Assembly: GCF_030294945.1 (NCBI RefSeq) | Contig: NZ_AP018448.1 | Location: 10,016,501 to 10,080,500 of the forward strand | DNA: 64,000 bases | Direction of reading: 5' to 3' | From: Streptomyces graminofaciens | Lineage (GTDB): Bacteria > Actinomycetota > Actinomycetes > Streptomycetales > Streptomycetaceae | Made by a program: the position numbers and the translations under genes | Notes under the pieces: generated by a model | Seen by the model: the letters and a program-made list of their open reading frames with translations, nothing else | The model's database searches: none | Told to the model about the DNA's origin: nothing | In this document: positions 2,333 through 10,832 of the stretch, piece by piece | Position numbering within the stretch: the stretch's first letter is position 1 | How the letters are laid out: the number at the start of each line of letters is the position of its first letter

Positions 2333-4150
2333 TCAGCCGAGTGCGGATACCGCACCCCTGAGCACCAAACCAGCCCCCAGGGCGACGACCACCAGCGCCG
2401 AGGCCAGCGGCATGGTCCTGCGCACCAGCGCCGCGGTCGGCCCGCCGAGCCGGCCCTCGCCCTTGTCCATCATCCGCGTGGCCCAGCCGCCCGCCTTCAC
2501 CACGGCGTACCCGGCCGCCGTCAGGGTGAGCGCCAGCCCGATGCCGTACGCCAACACGAGCAGCAGCCCGAACCACGCCTTGCCGAGCGCCGCCGCGCCG
2601 ACCAGCACGACCACCGCCGAGGGGCTCGGCACCATGCCGCCCGCGAACCCGAGCAGGATCGTGCCCCGCAGGGTGGGCGCGGTGGGGTGGGTGTGGGTGA
2701 AGCCGCCGTGGGTGTGGGTGACACCGCCACCGAAGAGAGAGCGCTTCTCGGTGTGGCTGTGGCTGTGGCCCTGGTCGTGCACGTGGTCATGGTCATGGCC
2801 GTGATCGTGATCGTGATCGTGTGTGTGGGCCTTGGTGGGGGCGTGCTCGTGAGTGTGAGCCTCGGCCGACGTGTGCGTGTGCGTCTGGGTGTGGGCGAGG
2901 ACGAGTTCCTTGGCGGGCTCAGGCCTGTGGTCGTGCGTGTGGGAGTGCGCGCCCTCATGACCGTGGTCGTGGTCGTGGCTGTGGGAGTGCCCGTGCCCGT
3001 GCCCGTGACTGTGCCCGTGACTGTGGTCGTGGTCGTGATCGTGACTGTGACCATGTGCGTGGTCGCGCCCGTGCTCGTGTCCGTGCCCGTGTCCCTGCCC
3101 CTGACTCTGCATCAGCGCGAGCTTGCGGTTCTGCCAGGCGCGTCGGGTGAGCGTCACGCCCGCCGCCAGTACGAAGAGTCCGCTCGCGATGCCCAGCCAG
3201 GTGATCACGGACGGCGCGGCGGCCGAACCGGCGAGGACGAGCAGGCCGAGTGCGACGACGCCCAGGGTGTGCGTGACCGTCACGGAGGCGGCCATGGGCA
3301 GTACGTCGCGCATCCGGGCCCGGTCGCGGGCGGCGGCCGTGGCGGCCATCAGGGTCTTGCCGTGGCCCGGGCCGAGGGCGTGCATCGCGCCGAGGAACAT
3401 GGCGATCACGAAGGCCAGGGCGCCGAAGCCGAGCGTGAGGTCGTGGCTGGAGACCAGGTCGTCGAGGGCCTGGGTCCAGCGGTCCGCGCCGCGCGGGAGG
3501 ATGGAGGAGGCGGGCGCGTCCCGCTCGTCGTCGGAGGCCAGCGCGGGCCCGCCGGGCCGCACCTGGAGGGACGCCGCCGCCGTGTCCTTCGGCGACTGCA
3601 ACAGATCGGCGGGGTAGACGGTGAGTTGCCTGGACACCGACTCCTCGGGCACGTCCGACCCGGTCAGCGTCATCCGGTCGCCCCGGGCGGTGACCTCGCG
3701 CCAGCCGGGGCCGGAGTCCACGGCCGCGTGGAAGCGTACGTCAGAGGCCCGGTCCGGCAGCGGAGCCGTCAGCCGGCACTCCACGCGCAGGGTCTTCAGC
3801 CCCGCCTGCCCCGGCCGCTGCTCGGCCGAGCTCGACCCGACCTTCAGCGCGACGGCGTTCCCGTCGACGGTGACCTCACTGCGCTCGGCGGCCGTCGCGC
3901 ACCGCTCCTCGGCCCAGCTCTCCATGCCCTGCCGCTTGATCGCGGGCTTGGCCTGGGTCGCCGGAATCTCCGCGAGGTCCTCCACATGGAAGACCTTCAG
4001 CTTCCCAGGGGCGGCCACCAGCCCGTCGTACCGGTTGACGGTGAAGTTGCCGAGAGGGTGCGCGCTCGCGGCCCCGGCGGGGAGGAGCAGCAGGGCGAGG
4101 ACGGCCAGCAGGACCGTCGTGGCGGAGGCGAGAACGCGTCGGCGGGACAT
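2333..4150 (-). CDS. NicO/RcnA-type divalent metal exporter with giant His-rich loop
   Basis: 605 residues. A signal peptide (MSRRRVLAS..., cleavage near AASAHP) precedes a roughly 170-residue extracytoplasmic domain. A first NicO module follows, with the signature HALGPGHGKT and about three helices. Next is a cytoplasmic loop of well over 120 residues made mostly of HGH, HDHDH and HTHTH runs, then a second helical module (GGMVPSPSAVVVLVG). The family moves Ni(II)/Co(II) and similar ions across the membrane; the His loop presumably binds metal. The start is fixed by a TGATG junction with the upstream TPR gene, implying translational coupling. Metal specificity and direction are inferred. The loop gives long GTG/CAC-rich low-complexity DNA and spurious antisense ORFs. 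Confidence 0.85.
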   Translation of the reverse strand: MSRRRVLASATTVLLAVLALLLLPAGAASAHPLGNFTVNRYDGLVAAPGKLKVFHVEDLAEIPATQAKPAIKRQGMESWAEERCATAAERSEVTVDGNAVALKVGSSSAEQRPGQAGLKTLRVECRLTAPLPDRASDVRFHAAVDSGPGWREVTARGDRMTLTGSDVPEESVSRQLTVYPADLLQSPKDTAAASLQVRPGGPALASDDERDAPASSILPRGADRWTQALDDLVSSHDLTLGFGALAFVIAMFLGAMHALGPGHGKTLMAATAAARDRARMRDVLPMAASVTVTHTLGVVALGLLVLAGSAAAPSVITWLGIASGLFVLAAGVTLTRRAWQNRKLALMQSQGQGHGHGHEHGRDHAHGHSHDHDHDHSHGHSHGHGHGHSHSHDHDHGHEGAHSHTHDHRPEPAKELVLAHTQTHTHTSAEAHTHEHAPTKAHTHDHDHDHGHDHDHVHDQGHSHSHTEKRSLFGGGVTHTHGGFTHTHPTAPTLRGTILLGFAGGMVPSPSAVVVLVGAAALGKAWFGLLLVLAYGIGLALTLTAAGYAVVKAGGWATRMMDKGEGRLGGPTAALVRRTMPLASALVVVALGAGLVLRGAVSALG

Positions 4151-5838
4151 CACTTGTCGGCCTCCGCAGCCTTGAGAGCCTTCAGGGTCCTGCGGGCTTC
4201 CTTGGCGCCGAGCGGCGAGAAGCCGGGGTTGAGGTCGAGGGCGGCCGTCAGCCGGGCGCGCGCCTCCTTCTTGTCGCCGGCCGCGTACTCGATCATGCCG
4301 CGGTGGTAGAGGAAGGTCGCGTCCTGGTAGCCGGTGGCCGTGGCCCGGCGGGCGTACGGCAGGGCCTCCTCGTCCTTGCCGTTGACGTGCAGTGCCCAGG
4401 CGAGGGCGTCGGCCGTGTGGACCGTCTCCCGGCGCTGCCACTCGGCGCGGGCCGCGCGCAGGGCGGCCTTCTTGTCGCCGTGGTCGGCGGCGGCGAGCGC
4501 GGTGTCGAGGTCGGCGTTGACGCCGTTGGCGCGGGCGATCGAGGTCCACGCGTTCACGAGGGCGTACTGATCGCGCGCCTCGGTCGTCCGGCCCTCGGCC
4601 TCGTACAGCTCGCCGAGCACGACGAGCGGTCCCGGCAGCGGATAGCCGGACACGACCTGTTCGAGCCCGGTGACCGCGTCCTCGGTGTCCCCGCTCGCGG
4701 CCTGGGCGCGGGCCCGGCCCTCCAGGGCGGGGAGGTAGGTGTCGTCGGCGGCGAGGGCGCGCGCGTAGTAGTCGAGGGAGGTCTTGTAGTCGCCCTGCTT
4801 CCAGGCGAGCTGGCCGAGCTGGGTGGCGACGTACGCCATGTCACCGGGCGCCGTGGAGGTGGCGAGGGCCTGCTTGAGCACCCGCCGGGCGGTCTTCACA
4901 TCGCCGCGCAGCTCGTGGACGTACGCGTACCGGGTGAAGACGGGGACGCCGGGCTGCCGTGAGTCGGCGAGCTTCGCGGCCTTCAACGCCTCGTCGTAGC
5001 GGCCGAGTTCGACCAGGGCGTCGATACGGGTGGACAGCGCGCGCTCGCTGTACGGGTTCACCTTCAGCGCCCGGTCCGCGTCCTTGAGCGCCTTCTCGAA
5101 CTGGTGCCGGGCGGCGGCGAGCGCGGCCCGCGCGGCGAGCGCCTGGTCGTTGTCCGGGCGCAGCTCCAGCGAGCGTTCGACGGCCTTCTCGGCCTGGGGG
5201 TAGCGGGAGGGGTCGCCCTTGGTGCGGGCCTGCTCGACATAGGCGAGCCCGAGCGTGGACCAGGAGCCGAAGTCCCGCGGCTGCTGCTTGAGATGGGCCT
5301 GCAGCGCGCGCACCGTCGAGTCGAGATCACCACGCGCGAGCTGCGCCGCCGAGATCCCGCCCGAGGAGGAGAGACTCACCCCCGGACCGTCGTCCCGCCC
5401 CCCGAGAGCGATGGCGCCCCCGGTGAACGCGACGGCCAGCGCGGCCGCACAGGCGACGAAGCTCAGCACCCGGCGCCGGGCGGGTTCGGGGCGGGTGGCG
5501 CCGGTGCCCCGGGGGCCGGGAACACGAGCCGCCGTCGACGTCCTGTCTCGGCTGGTGGCCGCCGCCGACGACGCGGAGCCACCCGGCTCACCCGCGCCGA
5601 CCGCCTCTGCCGTCGGGGTGGTCCCCGGCTGGTCCGCGCTGGTGTCCCCGCCCGCCAGGGCGTCGCCCGGCCGGTCTTCGGCGGTGGCCTTCCCCGGTCG
5701 GCCGTCGTCGGCCGCCTCGGTCACCTCGATGACCTCGGCTCCCTCGGCGACAGCCGACTCACTCGGTTCCTGGGCCGGAGCGGGCGTGTCCGGGTCCGTG
5801 TCCTTCTCCGGCGCGCTCTCGTTCGTACGCGGGGACAT
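4150..5838 (-). CDS. Membrane-anchored tetratricopeptide-repeat protein
   Basis: 562 residues. An acidic, low-complexity N-terminal segment (about 1-120) precedes one membrane helix (RRRVLSFVACAAALAVAF) and then a long array of TPR helices to the C-terminus (for example ALKADPxxxxA-type LKVNPYSERALSTR, LELRPDNDQAL). ATG at 5838 is preferred over GTG at 5844 because GAGGAG lies at normal spacing before it. The topology places the TPRs outside. It is the middle gene of DUF4331-TPR-NicO, a gene order I have seen conserved in streptomycetes, and is probably a scaffold for that system. Function is not established. Confidence 0.85.
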   Translation of the reverse strand: MSPRTNESAPEKDTDPDTPAPAQEPSESAVAEGAEVIEVTEAADDGRPGKATAEDRPGDALAGGDTSADQPGTTPTAEAVGAGEPGGSASSAAATSRDRTSTAARVPGPRGTGATRPEPARRRVLSFVACAAALAVAFTGGAIALGGRDDGPGVSLSSSGGISAAQLARGDLDSTVRALQAHLKQQPRDFGSWSTLGLAYVEQARTKGDPSRYPQAEKAVERSLELRPDNDQALAARAALAAARHQFEKALKDADRALKVNPYSERALSTRIDALVELGRYDEALKAAKLADSRQPGVPVFTRYAYVHELRGDVKTARRVLKQALATSTAPGDMAYVATQLGQLAWKQGDYKTSLDYYARALAADDTYLPALEGRARAQAASGDTEDAVTGLEQVVSGYPLPGPLVVLGELYEAEGRTTEARDQYALVNAWTSIARANGVNADLDTALAAADHGDKKAALRAARAEWQRRETVHTADALAWALHVNGKDEEALPYARRATATGYQDATFLYHRGMIEYAAGDKKEARARLTAALDLNPGFSPLGAKEARRTLKALKAAEADK

Positions 5839-5986
5839 GCCCACTCCTCAACATCCTTGCCGAGCACAGTCGTTGCGGTAAGTCGGTGGATCGGTGGGGC
5901 GCGGCCCGCGCCGTGGGGGATGGGTACGAGCGGGCCGCGCCGGTCTGTGGACCGGGCCCCTGGGGAGCGGGCCCGGCCGGGGTGGA

Positions 5987-7513
5987 CTAGTAGTACGCCC
6001 GGTCGTTCCGGCGACGCCACCACAGCAGACCGGCGCCGATGAGCAGCACGCCGCCCGCGCCCGCGCCCGCCGAGGCCGCGATCAGCGTGGTGTCGTCGGA
6101 GCCGCTGCCCGTCTCCACGCCGCTGCCGAGCGCGCTACGGACGCTGTTCGTGGTGTTGCCCTTGACGGTCTTGCCCCGGGAACCGGCCGTCGGCAGACCG
6201 ACGTACGGGAAGGAGTGGCCGAACTTCTTGTCGTTCTTGTTGACCGCGTCACCCAGGTCGTTCTTCGTGCCGAGCAGCTCGCCCTCGACGACCTGCAGCG
6301 AGATGTCGATCACGTCGTCGGTGAGCCGGCGCCCGTTCGGGAAGCCCGCGTTGTCACCGTCGAGCACACCGAGCCGCTTCGGCTTGGCGGACGGCTTGAT
6401 CGAGGTGTTGAGGCGCAGCTCCTCCGACGCCCGCACCTTCGGCGGCTGGTTGAGGCCCTTGACGCCCTTCAGGAACACGTCGACGAGGTCGTTGCGCGGC
6501 TCGGCGGGCGCCTTGATCTTGTAGATCGCCTCGATGAGCTTCGGCAGCTCCGGCTCGGTGACGTTGTCCAGGAACTGTCCGTCGTTCCAGGGCTGCGACG
6601 CGTTGAACGTGTCCTTGTCCTCGATCGGGTTGACCACCTCGTTGACCAGCGGCATACCGAGCCGTGAGACCTGGTGGAACTGCCCGTTGGCGCCCCGGCG
6701 CTGCGTCGTGGACCAGATGCCGACGATCGGCTGGTCCTTCGACTCGGTGATCATGTCGCTCGGCAGCTGCAGGGCGATCGAGTTGACGTTGTAGCCCTTC
6801 AGCGTGTCCCGCCCGACCTCGGAGAGGTCACCGCCGTACAGCAGATCGAAGACGCGCAGGTCCAGGAAGAACGGGTCGTCGGCCTGGCCGGCGAACGTCT
6901 CCGCGCCGCCCGCCGTCTTGTAGATGGCCTGGTCCCGCAGCTTCTTGTAGTTCGGCATCGACGCCTTGCCGACGTTCGACGGCGCCACCGGCACGTCGTC
7001 CGCGAGCTTCGTCTTCGAGACGATCCGCTGGTTCCGCAGCTTGAGGACCTCGAGGTCGTACGTCTGCGTGATGTTCAGGTCCTGGTCGTCGAGACTCTCG
7101 ACCACGCCCGTGTTGTAGAGGAACGTCTTCTTGTTCTTGGTGTCCGTGTCGAAGGTGTAGCGGAAGACCAACTCACCCTGTGCGTCACCGTTGTTGTCGA
7201 TGTGGATGTCGTACTGCGCGTCCTCGGCGAACGGGAAGAAGTTCGGTCCGCCCGCGGGCTCCTCGAACGGGATCCAGTTCGCCACGATGGTCGTGGTGTC
7301 CGGCTTGTCCGGGCTGACGAACGCGTACACGTCGGTGTTGTCGTACTGGGGGGTCCCCGAGATCAGCGGGGCCTCCCGGTGGCTGGAGGCGGAGGCCGCC
7401 CCCGGTTCCAGCACGGTCACGCCGGCGGCTGCGAGCCCTCCGGCGGCCAGCGAACCACAGATGAGGGCCGCGATGCTCCTGCGCCCCGCGCCGCTCCTGG
7501 AAGTAGGTGTCAT
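5987..7513 (-). CDS. Secreted DUF4331 protein
   Basis: 508 residues. An N-terminal signal peptide cleaves near ASASSHREAP; SSHREAP and DNTDVYAFVSPD are hallmarks of DUF4331. The C-terminus has a Gly/Ala-rich membrane helix and a WWRRR tail, so the mature protein is anchored outside. ATG at 7513 is chosen; an upstream TTG in frame has no support. No enzymatic motif is recognised and the family has no settled function. A SigK-like promoter lies about 40 bp upstream, so it is probably the first gene of a SigK-controlled operon with the TPR and NicO genes. Confidence 0.88.
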   Translation of the reverse strand: MTPTSRSGAGRRSIAALICGSLAAGGLAAAGVTVLEPGAASASSHREAPLISGTPQYDNTDVYAFVSPDKPDTTTIVANWIPFEEPAGGPNFFPFAEDAQYDIHIDNNGDAQGELVFRYTFDTDTKNKKTFLYNTGVVESLDDQDLNITQTYDLEVLKLRNQRIVSKTKLADDVPVAPSNVGKASMPNYKKLRDQAIYKTAGGAETFAGQADDPFFLDLRVFDLLYGGDLSEVGRDTLKGYNVNSIALQLPSDMITESKDQPIVGIWSTTQRRGANGQFHQVSRLGMPLVNEVVNPIEDKDTFNASQPWNDGQFLDNVTEPELPKLIEAIYKIKAPAEPRNDLVDVFLKGVKGLNQPPKVRASEELRLNTSIKPSAKPKRLGVLDGDNAGFPNGRRLTDDVIDISLQVVEGELLGTKNDLGDAVNKNDKKFGHSFPYVGLPTAGSRGKTVKGNTTNSVRSALGSGVETGSGSDDTTLIAASAGAGAGGVLLIGAGLLWWRRRNDRAYY

Positions 7514-7550
7514 GCCGTCCGTCCTCTGTCCCAACTTGCCTGACGAACGC

Positions 7551-7579
7551 CATTCGGAGCGGTCGGCAGGGTGGATTGG
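7551..7579 (-). promoter_or_regulatory. SigK-like promoter of the DUF4331 operon
   Basis: On the minus strand, CCAATCC (7579-7573), 15 nt, then CCGAATG (7557-7551). This closely resembles the CATCC-spacer-CCGAATG promoter described for mycobacterial SigK. The -10 ends about 37 bp from the ATG. The divergent sigma gene has a near-identical element with the same 15-nt spacer. Confidence 0.6.
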
Positions 7580-7699
7580 TCGAATCCCAAACGTTCTTAC
7601 GGAGCGTTTGAATGGTTGTCTCAGTGGAGAGCGGGATTCGTTGATCGAGTTCTGATCCGACGACGGACGGCCCGCGTTTTGGGCAGGCTCATCCGTAAC

Positions 7700-7728
7700 C
7701 CCATCCGGAGGTGGGTTGGTTGCGAATG
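7700..7728 (+). promoter_or_regulatory. SigK-like autoregulatory promoter of the sigma gene
   Basis: CCCATCC (7700-7706), 15 nt, GCGAATG (7722-7728). It matches the divergent element in spacing and at both boxes. It overlaps the possible upstream starts at 7711 and 7726, which argues that translation begins further down at GTG 7777. Confidence 0.55.
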
Positions 7729-7776
7729 CCTTACGCGCGGGGATGGCCGTGCTCGGCCGGAGGCGAGGGGGAGCGA

Positions 7777-8319
7777 GTGGAGGCGGACAAGCTTCTGGTC
7801 CAGGTGGCCGGAGGTGACCAGAGGGCGTTCGAGGAGCTGTACGGACTGGTGTCCGGCCCGGTGTTCGGGCTGGTGCGCCGGGTCGTACGGGATCCCGCGC
7901 AGTCGGAGGAGGTGGCTCAGGAGGTGCTGCTCGAACTCTGGCGTTCCGCGGGCCGGTTCGACCCCGGCCGCGGCAGCGCCCTGTCCTGGATCCTCACCCT
8001 CGCCCACCGCCGCGCGGTCGACCGGGTGCGCAGCGCCCGCGCCGCCACCGAGCGCGAGCAGCGCGAGGGCTACAAGGCCCACCACCCCGCCTTCGACCAG
8101 GTCGCCGAGGAGGTCGAGGCCGGCCTCGAACGCCAGTGGGTGCGCCACTGCCTGGAGAAGCTCACCAACCTCCAGCGCGAGTCCGTCACCCTCGCCTACT
8201 ACGACGGCTACACCTACCGAGAAGTGGCCGAGCGGCTCTCGCTGCCGCTCGGCACGGTCAAGACCCGCATGCGCGACGGACTCACACGGCTGCGCGAATG
8301 CCTGGGAGGAGTCGCATGA
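7777..8319 (+). CDS. sigK: ECF RNA polymerase sigma factor, SigK-like
   Basis: 180 residues from GTG 7777, which has GGGGAG just upstream; the longer frame from 7711 would run through its own promoter. Region 2 contains RDPAQSEEVAQEVLLELWR and HRRAVDRVRSA; region 4 contains ESVTLAYYDGYTYREVAERLSLPLGTVKTRMRDG, split here only for description. These match the SigK branch of ECF sigmas. It is followed by a coupled 28-codon ORF and an anti-sigma gene, and diverges from the DUF4331 operon that carries a matching promoter. Likely role is envelope or metal stress response; the signal is unknown. Confidence 0.88.
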   Translation: MEADKLLVQVAGGDQRAFEELYGLVSGPVFGLVRRVVRDPAQSEEVAQEVLLELWRSAGRFDPGRGSALSWILTLAHRRAVDRVRSARAATEREQREGYKAHHPAFDQVAEEVEAGLERQWVRHCLEKLTNLQRESVTLAYYDGYTYREVAERLSLPLGTVKTRMRDGLTRLRECLGGVA

Positions 8320-8402
8320 GCGCGCAGTTCGGCCCCACGGAACGCAGGGCCGCGATCGGCCTCGTGACACATGAGGCGCGTCAGGGCGGTGGTGCCGCAT
8401 GA
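8316..8402 (+). CDS. 28-residue ORF coupled between sigma and anti-sigma genes
   Basis: Starts MSAQFGPTERR and ends RQGGGAA. Its ATG overlaps the sigma stop (ATGA, 8316-8319) and its stop overlaps the anti-sigma start (ATGA, 8399-8402). GGGAGGAG lies 4-5 nt before its ATG. Such double overlaps are typical of translational coupling. It has no hydrophobic segment or recognised motif. It may be a real peptide or simply a translational bridge setting sigma/anti-sigma stoichiometry. Confidence 0.5.
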   Translation: MSAQFGPTERRAAIGLVTHEARQGGGAA

Positions 8403-9211
8403 GTCTGTTCCGTCGCGAGGACCTCCACTCCCTCGCCGCCCCCTACGCCCTCGACGCCCTGGAGCCCGACGAGCGGCGCCGCTTCGAGAAGCACCTGGAG
8501 CGCTGCGACCGCTGTCCCGCCGAGGTGCGCGCCCTGTCCGAGGACGCCGTCCGCCTCGCCTGGTCGACGGCGGCCCCCGCGCCGGCCGCGATGCGCGACC
8601 GGGTCTTCGCCGCCGTACGCAACACACCCCAGGAGAGCCAGTCCTGGGGTGCGCGGCAGGCGCGGCCGCAGCATCTGCCGCGGCATGTGTGGGGCACCGA
8701 GCCGCCGCCGAAGGCGCGCGCCCGTGCGCCCCGGTTGCGTCCTTTGTTCGCGCCGCTGGCCACCGCGACGGCCGCGGCCGCGCTCGTCGTCGCCTCGCTC
8801 TTCGCCGTGCAGGCCGACCGAACCCAGGACCAGCTGGACGCCGAGCGTGCCCAGGCACGTGAGATCGCCCACGTTCTCACCGCGCCGGACGCCCGCACCA
8901 CCAGTGAACGGGACGCTCGGGGCAATGGAATCGGAGTGATCGCTTCCGCAAAGGAGGGGAGTGCGATCGTGACCCTCAGCGGATTCGAGGACCTCCCGGG
9001 CGACCAGGTGCATCAGCTCTGGCTCATGCGCCCCAACGTGCAACCGCGCTCCCTCGGTCTCTTCGACGGCGACACGCCCTTGGTCACCAGCGGGATGAAA
9101 GCCGACGCGACGTCACTCGCCGTGACCGTCGAGCCCGACGGAGGATCACAACAACCCACCAGCCAGCCAGTTGTCCAACTCGCCCTGGAATCGGTTGGAT
9201 TCGGAGAGTAG
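8399..9211 (+). CDS. Anti-sigma factor, RskA family
   Basis: 270 residues. The N-terminal anti-sigma domain (about 1-75) has LHSLAAPYALDALEPDE and the HLERCDRCPAEV zinc-like HxxxCxxC motif. One membrane helix (about 120-143, LATATAAAALVVASLFAV) follows, then an extracytoplasmic RskA domain (about 150-270) with VHQLWLM and a Gly-rich fold. It should hold SigK inactive at the membrane until proteolysis. The start is defined by ATGA overlap with the 28-codon ORF. Confidence 0.88.
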   Translation: MSLFRREDLHSLAAPYALDALEPDERRRFEKHLERCDRCPAEVRALSEDAVRLAWSTAAPAPAAMRDRVFAAVRNTPQESQSWGARQARPQHLPRHVWGTEPPPKARARAPRLRPLFAPLATATAAAALVVASLFAVQADRTQDQLDAERAQAREIAHVLTAPDARTTSERDARGNGIGVIASAKEGSAIVTLSGFEDLPGDQVHQLWLMRPNVQPRSLGLFDGDTPLVTSGMKADATSLAVTVEPDGGSQQPTSQPVVQLALESVGFGE

Positions 9212-9623: not shown

Positions 9624-10832
9624 TCAGGCGACCACGCCTTCCCGGCGCAACGCTGCGATCTCGTCGTCCGTCATCCCCACGGCACGCAGCAGCGATCCGG
9701 TGTGCTCCCCGAGCGCGGGCACGGCCCCCATCCGCGCCTCGTCCCCGCCCGGCAGCGTGATCGGCGGCAGCAACGCCCTGAGCGGCCCCACCGGTGACCC
9801 CACTTCCCGCCATCGGTCCCGGGCTGCCAGCTGCGGATGCTCCGCCACCTCCCGTACGTCCCTGAGGCGTGCGCAGGCGATCCCGGCCGCCTCCAGCCGC
9901 GCCACCGCCTCGTCGGCGTCCAGCAGGCCCAGCGCCCGCGCGACCAGCTCGTCCGTACGTTCCCGGTGCTCGACCCGGGCCGGATTCGTCGCGAACGCCG
10001 GATCGTCCGCCAACTCCGGCCGTCCCAGTACCTGTTGGGCGAGCCGTCGCCACTCCCGGTCGTTCTGCACCGACAACAGCACCCGCCCGCCGTCCGCCGT
10101 CGGATAGGCGTCGTACGGCGCGATCACGGCGTGCGCGAGCCCGGTCCGCACCGGAGGCGTCCCGTCGTGCATCGCGTGGTGCAGCGGATGTCCCATCCAC
10201 TCCGCCAGCGCGTCCAGCATCGACACCTCCACCGGCCCGCCCCGCCCGGTCGTGCCCCGGCGTACGAGCGCCGCGAGCACCCCTGAGAACGCGTACATCC
10301 CGGCGGCGATGTCCGCCGCCGGGATCCCGGCCTTCACCGGCTGCTCCGGCGTCCCCGTCACCGACACCAGCCCCGCCTCGCACTGCACGAGCATGTCGTA
10401 CGCCCGCTTGCCCGCGTACGGCCCCGACGCCCCGTACCCCGAGATGTCCACCGCGACCAGCCGGGGGTGCGCGGCGCACAGCGTGGCGGCGTCCAGGCCG
10501 AGCCGGGCCGCCGCGCCGTGCGCGAGGTTCTGCACGAACACGTCCGCGTCCGCCACCAGCCGCCGTACGACCTCAAGGCCCCGCGGGTCCTTGAGGTCCA
10601 CCGCCAGGGACTCCTTGCCCCGGTTGCACCACACGAAGTGCGAGGCCAGGCCCTGGGCGGCCGTGTCGTAGCCGCGGGCGAAGTCACCGCCGTCCACCCG
10701 CTCGACCTTGACGACGCGGGCACCGAGGTCGGCGAGCTGCCGGGTGGCGAAGGGCGCGGCGACGGCCTGCTCGACGGCCACGACGGTGATGCCCTCCAGG
10801 GGCAGCGGGAGACGGTCCATGGGGTGGATCAT
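9624..10832 (-). CDS. CaiB/BaiF family class III CoA-transferase
   Basis: 402 residues. The N-terminus has VVAVEQAVAAPFATRQLADLGARVVKVE, typical of the family, followed by FVWCNRGKESLAVDL. The catalytic Asp should be the one in RAYDMLVQCEAG. The fold transfers CoA between carboxylic acids; the substrate cannot be read from sequence. It stands alone between the sigK region and the ABC transporter. ATG 10832 is used; ATG 10820 is possible, and neither has a strong ribosome site. Confidence 0.9.
   Translation of the reverse strand: MIHPMDRLPLPLEGITVVAVEQAVAAPFATRQLADLGARVVKVERVDGGDFARGYDTAAQGLASHFVWCNRGKESLAVDLKDPRGLEVVRRLVADADVFVQNLAHGAAARLGLDAATLCAAHPRLVAVDISGYGASGPYAGKRAYDMLVQCEAGLVSVTGTPEQPVKAGIPAADIAAGMYAFSGVLAALVRRGTTGRGGPVEVSMLDALAEWMGHPLHHAMHDGTPPVRTGLAHAVIAPYDAYPTADGGRVLLSVQNDREWRRLAQQVLGRPELADDPAFATNPARVEHRERTDELVARALGLLDADEAVARLEAAGIACARLRDVREVAEHPQLAARDRWREVGSPVGPLRALLPPITLPGGDEARMGAVPALGEHTGSLLRAVGMTDDEIAALRREGVVA

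Follow-up and report, generated by a model that had tools for sequence, protein, structure and literature searches.

A DUF4331 gene set under a SigK-type promoter in Streptomyces graminofaciens, with a candidate amino-terminal metal site on the exported protein

The sigma factor SigK and its anti-sigma factor RskA form a switch best known from mycobacteria, where their regulon includes mpt70, mpt83 and other genes for surface proteins (PMC7509140). Here we describe a locus of Streptomyces graminofaciens in which a sigK-rskA pair on the plus strand diverges from a minus-strand row of three genes, encoding in this order a DUF4331 protein, a tetratricopeptide repeat (TPR) protein and a NicO-family permease. 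It lies at 10.02 Mb on the 11.6-Mb chromosome, in a stretch of 64,000 nucleotides analysed as a whole (the window), and its near relatives are from Streptomyces. The locus is like the mycobacterial system in combining an extracytoplasmic function (ECF) sigma factor with a membrane anti-sigma factor, a pair of cysteines 50 residues apart and surface-protein targets, and unlike it in that the target operon is DUF4331-TPR-NicO.

The nickel hook of the superoxide dismutase SodN sits at a freed N-terminus. In the corresponding gene set, sodN-sodX-sodT, a metal-site enzyme is encoded beside a NicO-type permease, as we propose for the window, and this permease has been proposed to supply the metal (PMC4284471). 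SodN is not a DUF4331 protein, however, and the site in the window is X-X-His on a protein exported by a signal peptide, with no dedicated protease gene recognised. The nickel/cobalt exporter RcnA has NicO-superfamily segments and a His-rich loop in common with the window permease, which differs in carrying an extra exported N-terminal domain (N-domain) and in reaching 121 bits against the RcnA model NF007454, below its cut-off of 195. Permeases of the HupE/UreJ_2 type share a predicted mature His start with the window permease, provide the closest fold to its N-domain (PDB 9gce), and fill the permease place in DUF4331 loci of Pseudomonadota. The DUF4331 family itself (PF14224), which the window protein matches over its full length, is widespread; a search confined to a library of open-access papers yielded none naming DUF4331 or PF14224. 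Taken together, the conserved front end of these proteins, the export-linked permease and the promoter pair suggest a function that could now be put to the test, in which protein processing would create a metal site and a dedicated transporter would serve it. Were this so, it would be a further metallation route outside the membrane and a further use of the SigK switch.

SigK-type promoters at the locus and in related genomes

The start regions of DUF4331 and sigK carry the same promoter form, as an earlier reading of the window sequence (the original prediction) had claimed. Exact matches to CCNATCC-N16-CGAATG number two in the window against 0.01 expected, a count reached in 0 of 100 shuffles, and these two, both in the gap between DUF4331 and sigK, are the only ones in the whole genome. 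The mycobacterial SigK consensus is CCATCC/CGAAT. With one mismatch allowed the genome held 28 places, compared with 7 for the reversed control, and lone near-matches therefore carry little meaning. Sigma-70-type promoters and terminators were looked for in the region and none was found.

To follow the site through related loci, which we grouped into drawn and named sets, we required at least 10 of the 11 motif positions at a spacing of 16 or 17. Loci were called SigK-adjacent on a tblastn match above 200 bits, weaker SigK-like loci (e.g. L119, L205, L206 and L232) being placed in the other class, and the regions upstream of TPR and NicO were tested only for hits of at least 100 bits. Among the 63 SigK-adjacent loci, 62 have the motif upstream of DUF4331 (18/18 drawn, 44/45 named; the exception, L249, has 9 of 11 positions), or 61 of 62 after removal of a locus present in two sets (L085 = L214). 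Within the same loci it was found ahead of TPR in 0/59 and ahead of NicO in 0/58 cases, and over all tested loci in 0/125 and 0/103 respectively. Shuffled DUF4331 upstream regions reached the same level in 9 of 2,800 cases. Among relatives the promoter site of sigK varies more than that of DUF4331. Where no SigK is adjacent, the DUF4331 motif is present in 2 of 42 drawn and 16 of 35 named loci: among Streptomyces loci without SigK, L086 and L102-L104 retain 7 to 9 of the 11 positions and L210, L215, L228 and L231 the full site, while some Nocardioides loci (L191, L192, L196) show 10 of 11 positions although they have no neighbouring SigK. Such sites would fit control by a SigK encoded at a distance.

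The constancy of this motif supports the SigK control put forward in the original prediction, as does the finding that 55 of the 62 main-class DUF4331 genes (61 genomes) lie no more than 3 kb from a SigK gene, and we regard control of the DUF4331 operon by SigK as very likely. The sigma factor scores 300 bits against the NCBIfam model NF007228 (cut-off 226), which no other protein of the genome passes (runner-up 133 bits). Its start is likely the GTG at 7777, because the ATG at 7726 falls inside the -10 element. Cys 124 and Cys 174 (numbered from codon 2) have the spacing of 50 seen for C133/C183 in Mycobacterium tuberculosis, and the pair is present in 63 of 63 relatives. RskA matches PF10099 (RskA_C, 110 bits) and PF22618 (RskA_N, 34.4 bits) and has a zinc-type HxxxCxxC motif and one membrane segment. 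Binding of RskA by the M. tuberculosis SigK is set by the oxidation state of its Cys pair (PMC7509140); a redox or metal input to SigK-RskA is plausible here. The stress induction proposed in the original prediction is conjecture so far.

At least one exact site occurs in 84 of 150 Streptomyces genomes, compared with three for the reversed control. At 29 of these places, examined mostly by eye and without a domain search, the site precedes DUF4331, sigK-type genes, a lone anti-sigma gene or others. The form CCAATCC-N16-CGAAY occurs four times in the S. graminofaciens genome (control 0), ahead of DUF4331, a DUF4394 protein gene and an anti-sigma-like gene, with one site lacking an obvious target. 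The DUF4394 protein is secreted (240 bits), and the promoter-like site before its gene is at L304:4885-4912 (own genome C1:8669884-8669911). The anti-sigma-like gene, whose site is at L303:6178-6205 (own genome C1:10740177-10740204, minus strand), lies downstream of another ECF sigma gene, and its zf-HC2 match of 19.1 bits is below the cut-off of 22.2; L153 and L173 hold a similar site and gene.

The amino terminus of DUF4331 proteins and the genes that accompany export

The window DUF4331 protein (PF14224, 542 bits, positions 1-421; Pfam) begins with a signal peptide whose predicted removal would expose Ser-Ser-His. We compared this front end in a close and a diverse list of relatives, each the best 120 of 7,996 scored proteins. 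Signal-peptidase-compatible residues stand directly before X-X-His (mostly SSH, rarely ASH) in 120/120 close and 118/119 diverse listed proteins, or 238/239 together, and the third position is His in every one of the 123 aligned rows. Cleavage two residues later, which would free the His, is equally compatible with the rules in the listed proteins, but does not match the starts of cytosolic members. Signal-less L120-L123 begin Met-Ser-Ser-His (4/4), and members of a divergent signal-less branch (about 340-380 residues) begin Met-Ser-His-His, Met-Ser-Asn-His or Met-Ala-Asp-His; in two of these divergent proteins GTG or TTG starts lead into Pro-Asp-His or Ser-Asp-His. The predicted start of the Nostoc protein is A|Ser-Asp-His. 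A divergent exported member, L117, has the predicted mature start Gly-Gly-His (SQA|GGH).

In the model of the window ectodomain (pLDDT 87.2) confidence is low only at the first ~8 residues, the tail and a few loops; residues 1-10 have a pLDDT of 46, although few positions are as well conserved as the first ones. An X-X-His N-terminus coordinates Cu(II) or Ni(II), its ligands being the terminal amine, two backbone amides and the ring of the His. A conserved, loose and exactly placed X-X-His at a freed N-terminus thus resembles an amino-terminal Cu(II)/Ni(II) site, and we consider such a site on the predicted mature DUF4331 protein somewhat probable.

At the other end of the protein, a hydropathy peak at 477-495 followed by Arg agrees with the membrane anchor of the original prediction, which holds for the window; by eye, the anchor is missing in many relatives. 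Anchoring to the cell wall by a sortase was considered and dropped: the window protein ends in a GVETG tail, but G[VI]xTG occurs in only two of the best 120 close proteins, the window's included, and the class F sortase substrate model NF058571 (GVDTG tail) gives 15.7 bits against a cut-off of 29. A sortase cluster (c20) does occur in the DUF4331 loci L110/L111, L119, L122, L125 and L129, with Pfam sortase checked in L110 and L125 and class F in L110; the DUF4331 protein of L122 is signal-less, the sortase of L119 is ~6 kb from DUF4331, and tails of the form GGVGAGxGG or GGVAAGGGG are found in L110, L125 and L129.

Export of DUF4331 and the presence of the partner genes go together. TPR or NicO/HupE genes accompany 0 of 22 signal-less loci, and both partners accompany 118 of 144 exported loci (Fisher p = 1.9e-14, not corrected for descent). 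This count leaves out five unclassed rows (L118, L127, L134, L255, L284), scores four ambiguous rows (L110, L111, L113, L289) as exported, and includes two rows from L110 together with L111, which repeats the L110 locus. A thinned set gave 55 exported members with both partners, 8 with TPR only and 3 with neither, and 22 cytosolic members with neither. For the divergent loci about 4 kb per side was read (one side shorter for L280 and L283, the L283 flank being 1.2 kb). In all 114 drawn or named loci with a NicO gene its distance from DUF4331 is at most 3.9 kb, so flanks of ~4 kb would have revealed it. The DUF4331 tree, from which L118, L274, 9 near-copies and 70 of the 80 named loci were left out, requires three or more changes of the signal-less state. 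L120-L123, nested within exported relatives, keep X-X-His but have no signal, TPR or NicO; L285 falls inside the cytosolic branch, yet its DUF4331 protein is exported and accompanied by TPR as well as NicO, the long branch of L285 making this placement less sure. Judged from these neighbourhoods, TPR and NicO most likely serve the exported DUF4331 protein, and there is a good probability that the three gene products work together on it. The X-X-His start, the cytosolic branches and this link to export had all been overlooked in the original prediction. The cytosolic paralogues L266-L284, which have Met-Ser-His-His or Met-Ser-Asn-His starts, share neighbours only within the pairs L280/L281 and L282/L283.

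DUF4331 is found in 87 of 147 genomes of the order and in 68 of 396 genomes of the phylum. The co-occurrence across genomes that the original prediction had put up for testing was seen in both sets: 60 drawn loci have TPR nearby in 56 cases, NicO in 49 and both in 49, and 80 named loci in 74, 65 and 65, with short contigs making up much of the remainder (61 of the 65 named loci with more than 5 kb of sequence hold TPR and NicO). The complete set of five genes is present in 58 of the 63 SigK-adjacent loci, and the three-gene set DUF4331-TPR-NicO reaches much deeper than the five-gene set. Outside Actinomycetota loci were read on plasmids only. DUF4331 matches were present in 34 plasmid records, of which 14 were read, among them 11 of the 20 pseudomonadotan ones. 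A Nostoc plasmid (L290) has DUF4331-TPR-NicO in the same order, with the HPLGNFT start and a His loop in its permease. TPR and HupE/UreJ-type genes stand beside DUF4331 in 8 of the 11 pseudomonadotan loci read, in L308 as a TPR/HupE pair ahead of DUF4331; the TPR calls are weak in four (Pfam below cut-off in L286 and L292, tblastn 51 bits in L287 and 40 bits in L309). A small gene separates DUF4331 from TPR in 4 of 5 annotated pseudomonadotan loci, and in two Pseudoalteromonas records the genes are immediately preceded by an ECF sigma/anti-sigma pair. The remaining three are Rhodobacterales plasmids with type II secretion genes instead, and Adhaeribacter (L291) and Miltoncostaea (L294) have TPR only. 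Of the other recurrent neighbour clusters, the Pfam-tested 33, 35, 40, 70 and 83 occur in at most three loci each, cluster 17 in 6 and cluster 11 in 14. DUF4331-TPR-NicO, which is found across Actinomycetota and also in Nostoc, is an old module. On the Rhodobacterales plasmids (L289, L293, L295) DUF4331 lies between a prepilin-peptidase-like gene and the type II secretion genes, which suggests a dedicated secreted substrate.

The TPR protein matches many Pfam TPR models. The outward orientation given in the original prediction finds partial support: there is one membrane segment with Arg on its N side, and some relatives in Nostoc and Pseudomonadota open with a signal-peptide-like sequence (both by eye), so the TPR part probably faces outward. 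The permease matches PF03824 with 43.3 bits as a whole protein (cut-off 27.7), although its single stretch in a six-frame search of the genome gave 21.4 bits, below that cut-off. Its relatives carry HxxxPGHxK in 34/34 and HPLGNF[TS] in 33/34 cases. The massive His loop of the original prediction is present in the window (Table 1) but is not general, the His peak of 34 relatives ranging from 7 to 39 His per 100 residues. The best fold match of the predicted N-domain is the Cu-bound HupE/UreJ-2 domain of PDB 9gce, followed in the next four VIA rows by ZrgA, once with zinc and once in the apo form, and by PA4063, both times with zinc. No sequence similarity between the NicO and HupE N-domains was found (hhalign probability 0.1, from a shallow profile of 4 rows), PDB sequence searches with the NicO N-domain and two HupE proteins gave nothing convincing, and the window NicO had no match to HupE/UreJ_2 (PF13795) at E up to 0.1, a model matched by the permeases of L287, L288 and L292. 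A crude count of TPR-NicO stop/start coupling in relatives was set aside, as the pattern is common by chance.

Proposed function and competing explanations

The explanation that we prefer, and to which we give an even chance as a whole, is that SigK runs a metalloprotein whose amino terminus forms a Cu/Ni-type site and which TPR and the permease serve on the outer side of the membrane. SigK, restrained by RskA until a presumed inducing signal arrives, would activate sigK-rskA and the DUF4331-TPR-NicO operon from the two matching promoters. DUF4331 would be exported and cut by signal peptidase directly before Ser-Ser-His, and the freed X-X-His would form a Cu(II) or Ni(II) site. The outward-facing TPR protein might act as an assembly scaffold, and the NicO permease (HupE/UreJ type in Pseudomonadota), itself with a predicted mature start at His, would handle metal for the exported protein, either bringing it across the membrane or clearing it. 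That the permease supplies metal rather than exporting it is a possibility that we rate a little short of even. More tentative is the general form of the proposal, in which DUF4331 would be an undescribed class of metalloprotein whose defining X-X-His has been rebuilt in evolution by the processing available, signal peptidase outside and methionine aminopeptidase inside. TPR and NicO/HupE would then be an extracytoplasmic metallation apparatus dedicated to the exported members and needed by no others, distributed over several phyla, with SigK as its regulator in Streptomyces.

Metal could instead be what the system removes or buffers, with NicO pumping out excess Ni/Co, DUF4331 and TPR forming an external sink and SigK answering metal or redox stress at the envelope. 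The membrane halves of the permease without the loop are weakly RcnA-like (46 and 32 bits), the His content of the loop goes up to 39 per 100 residues among Streptomyces relatives, an RcnA exporter with an expanded putative cytoplasmic His loop has been reported from cable bacteria (PMC11247825), and the constancy of the SigK Cys pair would also fit. However, 13 of 34 relatives with the module have a His peak of just 7-20 per 100, HupE/UreJ relatives stand in for the permease in Pseudomonadota, and the absence of NicO and TPR from the cytosolic DUF4331 branches better matches service to an exported protein than general detoxification; we think efflux unlikely. For the Ni/Co exporter of the original prediction the sequence gives no proof, the RcnA score being below cut-off and the direction of transport not readable from sequence.

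The X-X-His might also have nothing to do with metal and act as a docking or processing tag, TPR and a permease of the LysE/DsbD-like group then helping to fold DUF4331, to treat it by redox or to place it at the surface. A weak DsbD_2 match of NicO (22.2 bits, under the cut-off of 24.9; 35.1 bits for the Nostoc protein) points this way, as does the pairing of other exported DUF4331 proteins with the sortase cluster (L110/L111, L119, L125, L129) or with the type II secretion genes of the three Rhodobacterales plasmids. We judge it quite improbable, given that the His is kept in cytosolic branches with neither TPR nor permease neighbour and that the NicO family and the fold match of the N-domain both indicate metal. 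Mere sharing of a transcript by DUF4331, TPR and NicO within a general SigK envelope regulon, as the sites ahead of the DUF4394 protein and the anti-sigma-like gene could suggest, seems very improbable for a gene set that recurs across phyla and is absent where export is absent.

Feature coordinates and flanking genes

The gene row, its divergence from the sigma/anti-sigma pair and the 1-base overlap reported in the original prediction were all recovered (Table 1), the TPR stop and the NicO start having base 4150 in common (TGATG).

Table 1. Features of the DUF4331-sigK locus in the window, with the basis of each assignment
Feature	Position	Strand	Basis
NicO-family permease: cleavable-type signal, exported N-domain (His-Pro-Leu-Gly-Asn start), ~6 predicted membrane segments, His-rich loop	2333..4150	-	PF03824
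His-rich loop of NicO, probably cytoplasmic	2666..3124	-	48 His/153 residues including borders
Exported N-domain of NicO (about residues 31-210)	3521..4060	-	predicted fold closest to PDB 9gce
TPR protein, one membrane segment (residues 127-145), TPR part probably outside	4150..5838	-	Pfam TPR models, hydropathy
DUF4331 protein: signal peptide, 421-position DUF4331 domain, C-terminal membrane anchor	5987..7513	-	PF14224, hydropathy
Codons Ser43-Ser44-His45, predicted mature N-terminus (X-X-His)	7379..7387	-	A-S-A|S-S-H
SigK-type promoter of the DUF4331 operon, CCAATCC-N16-CGAATG	7551..7579	-	motif match (CCAATCC...CCGAATG, read 7579-7551)
SigK-type promoter of sigK-rskA, CCCATCC-N16-CGAATG	7700..7728	+	motif match (CCCATCC...GCGAATG)
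SigK, ECF sigma factor, Cys pair 50 residues apart	7777..8319	+	NF007228
RskA-type anti-sigma factor, HxxxCxxC, one membrane segment	8399..9211	+	PF10099, PF22618

The block is flanked by a Ser/Thr kinase gene (554-2266) and a CoA-transferase gene (9624-10832). In the SigK-bearing Streptomyces relatives the kinase gene still adjoins the block, and in some of them the CoA-transferase gene does too.

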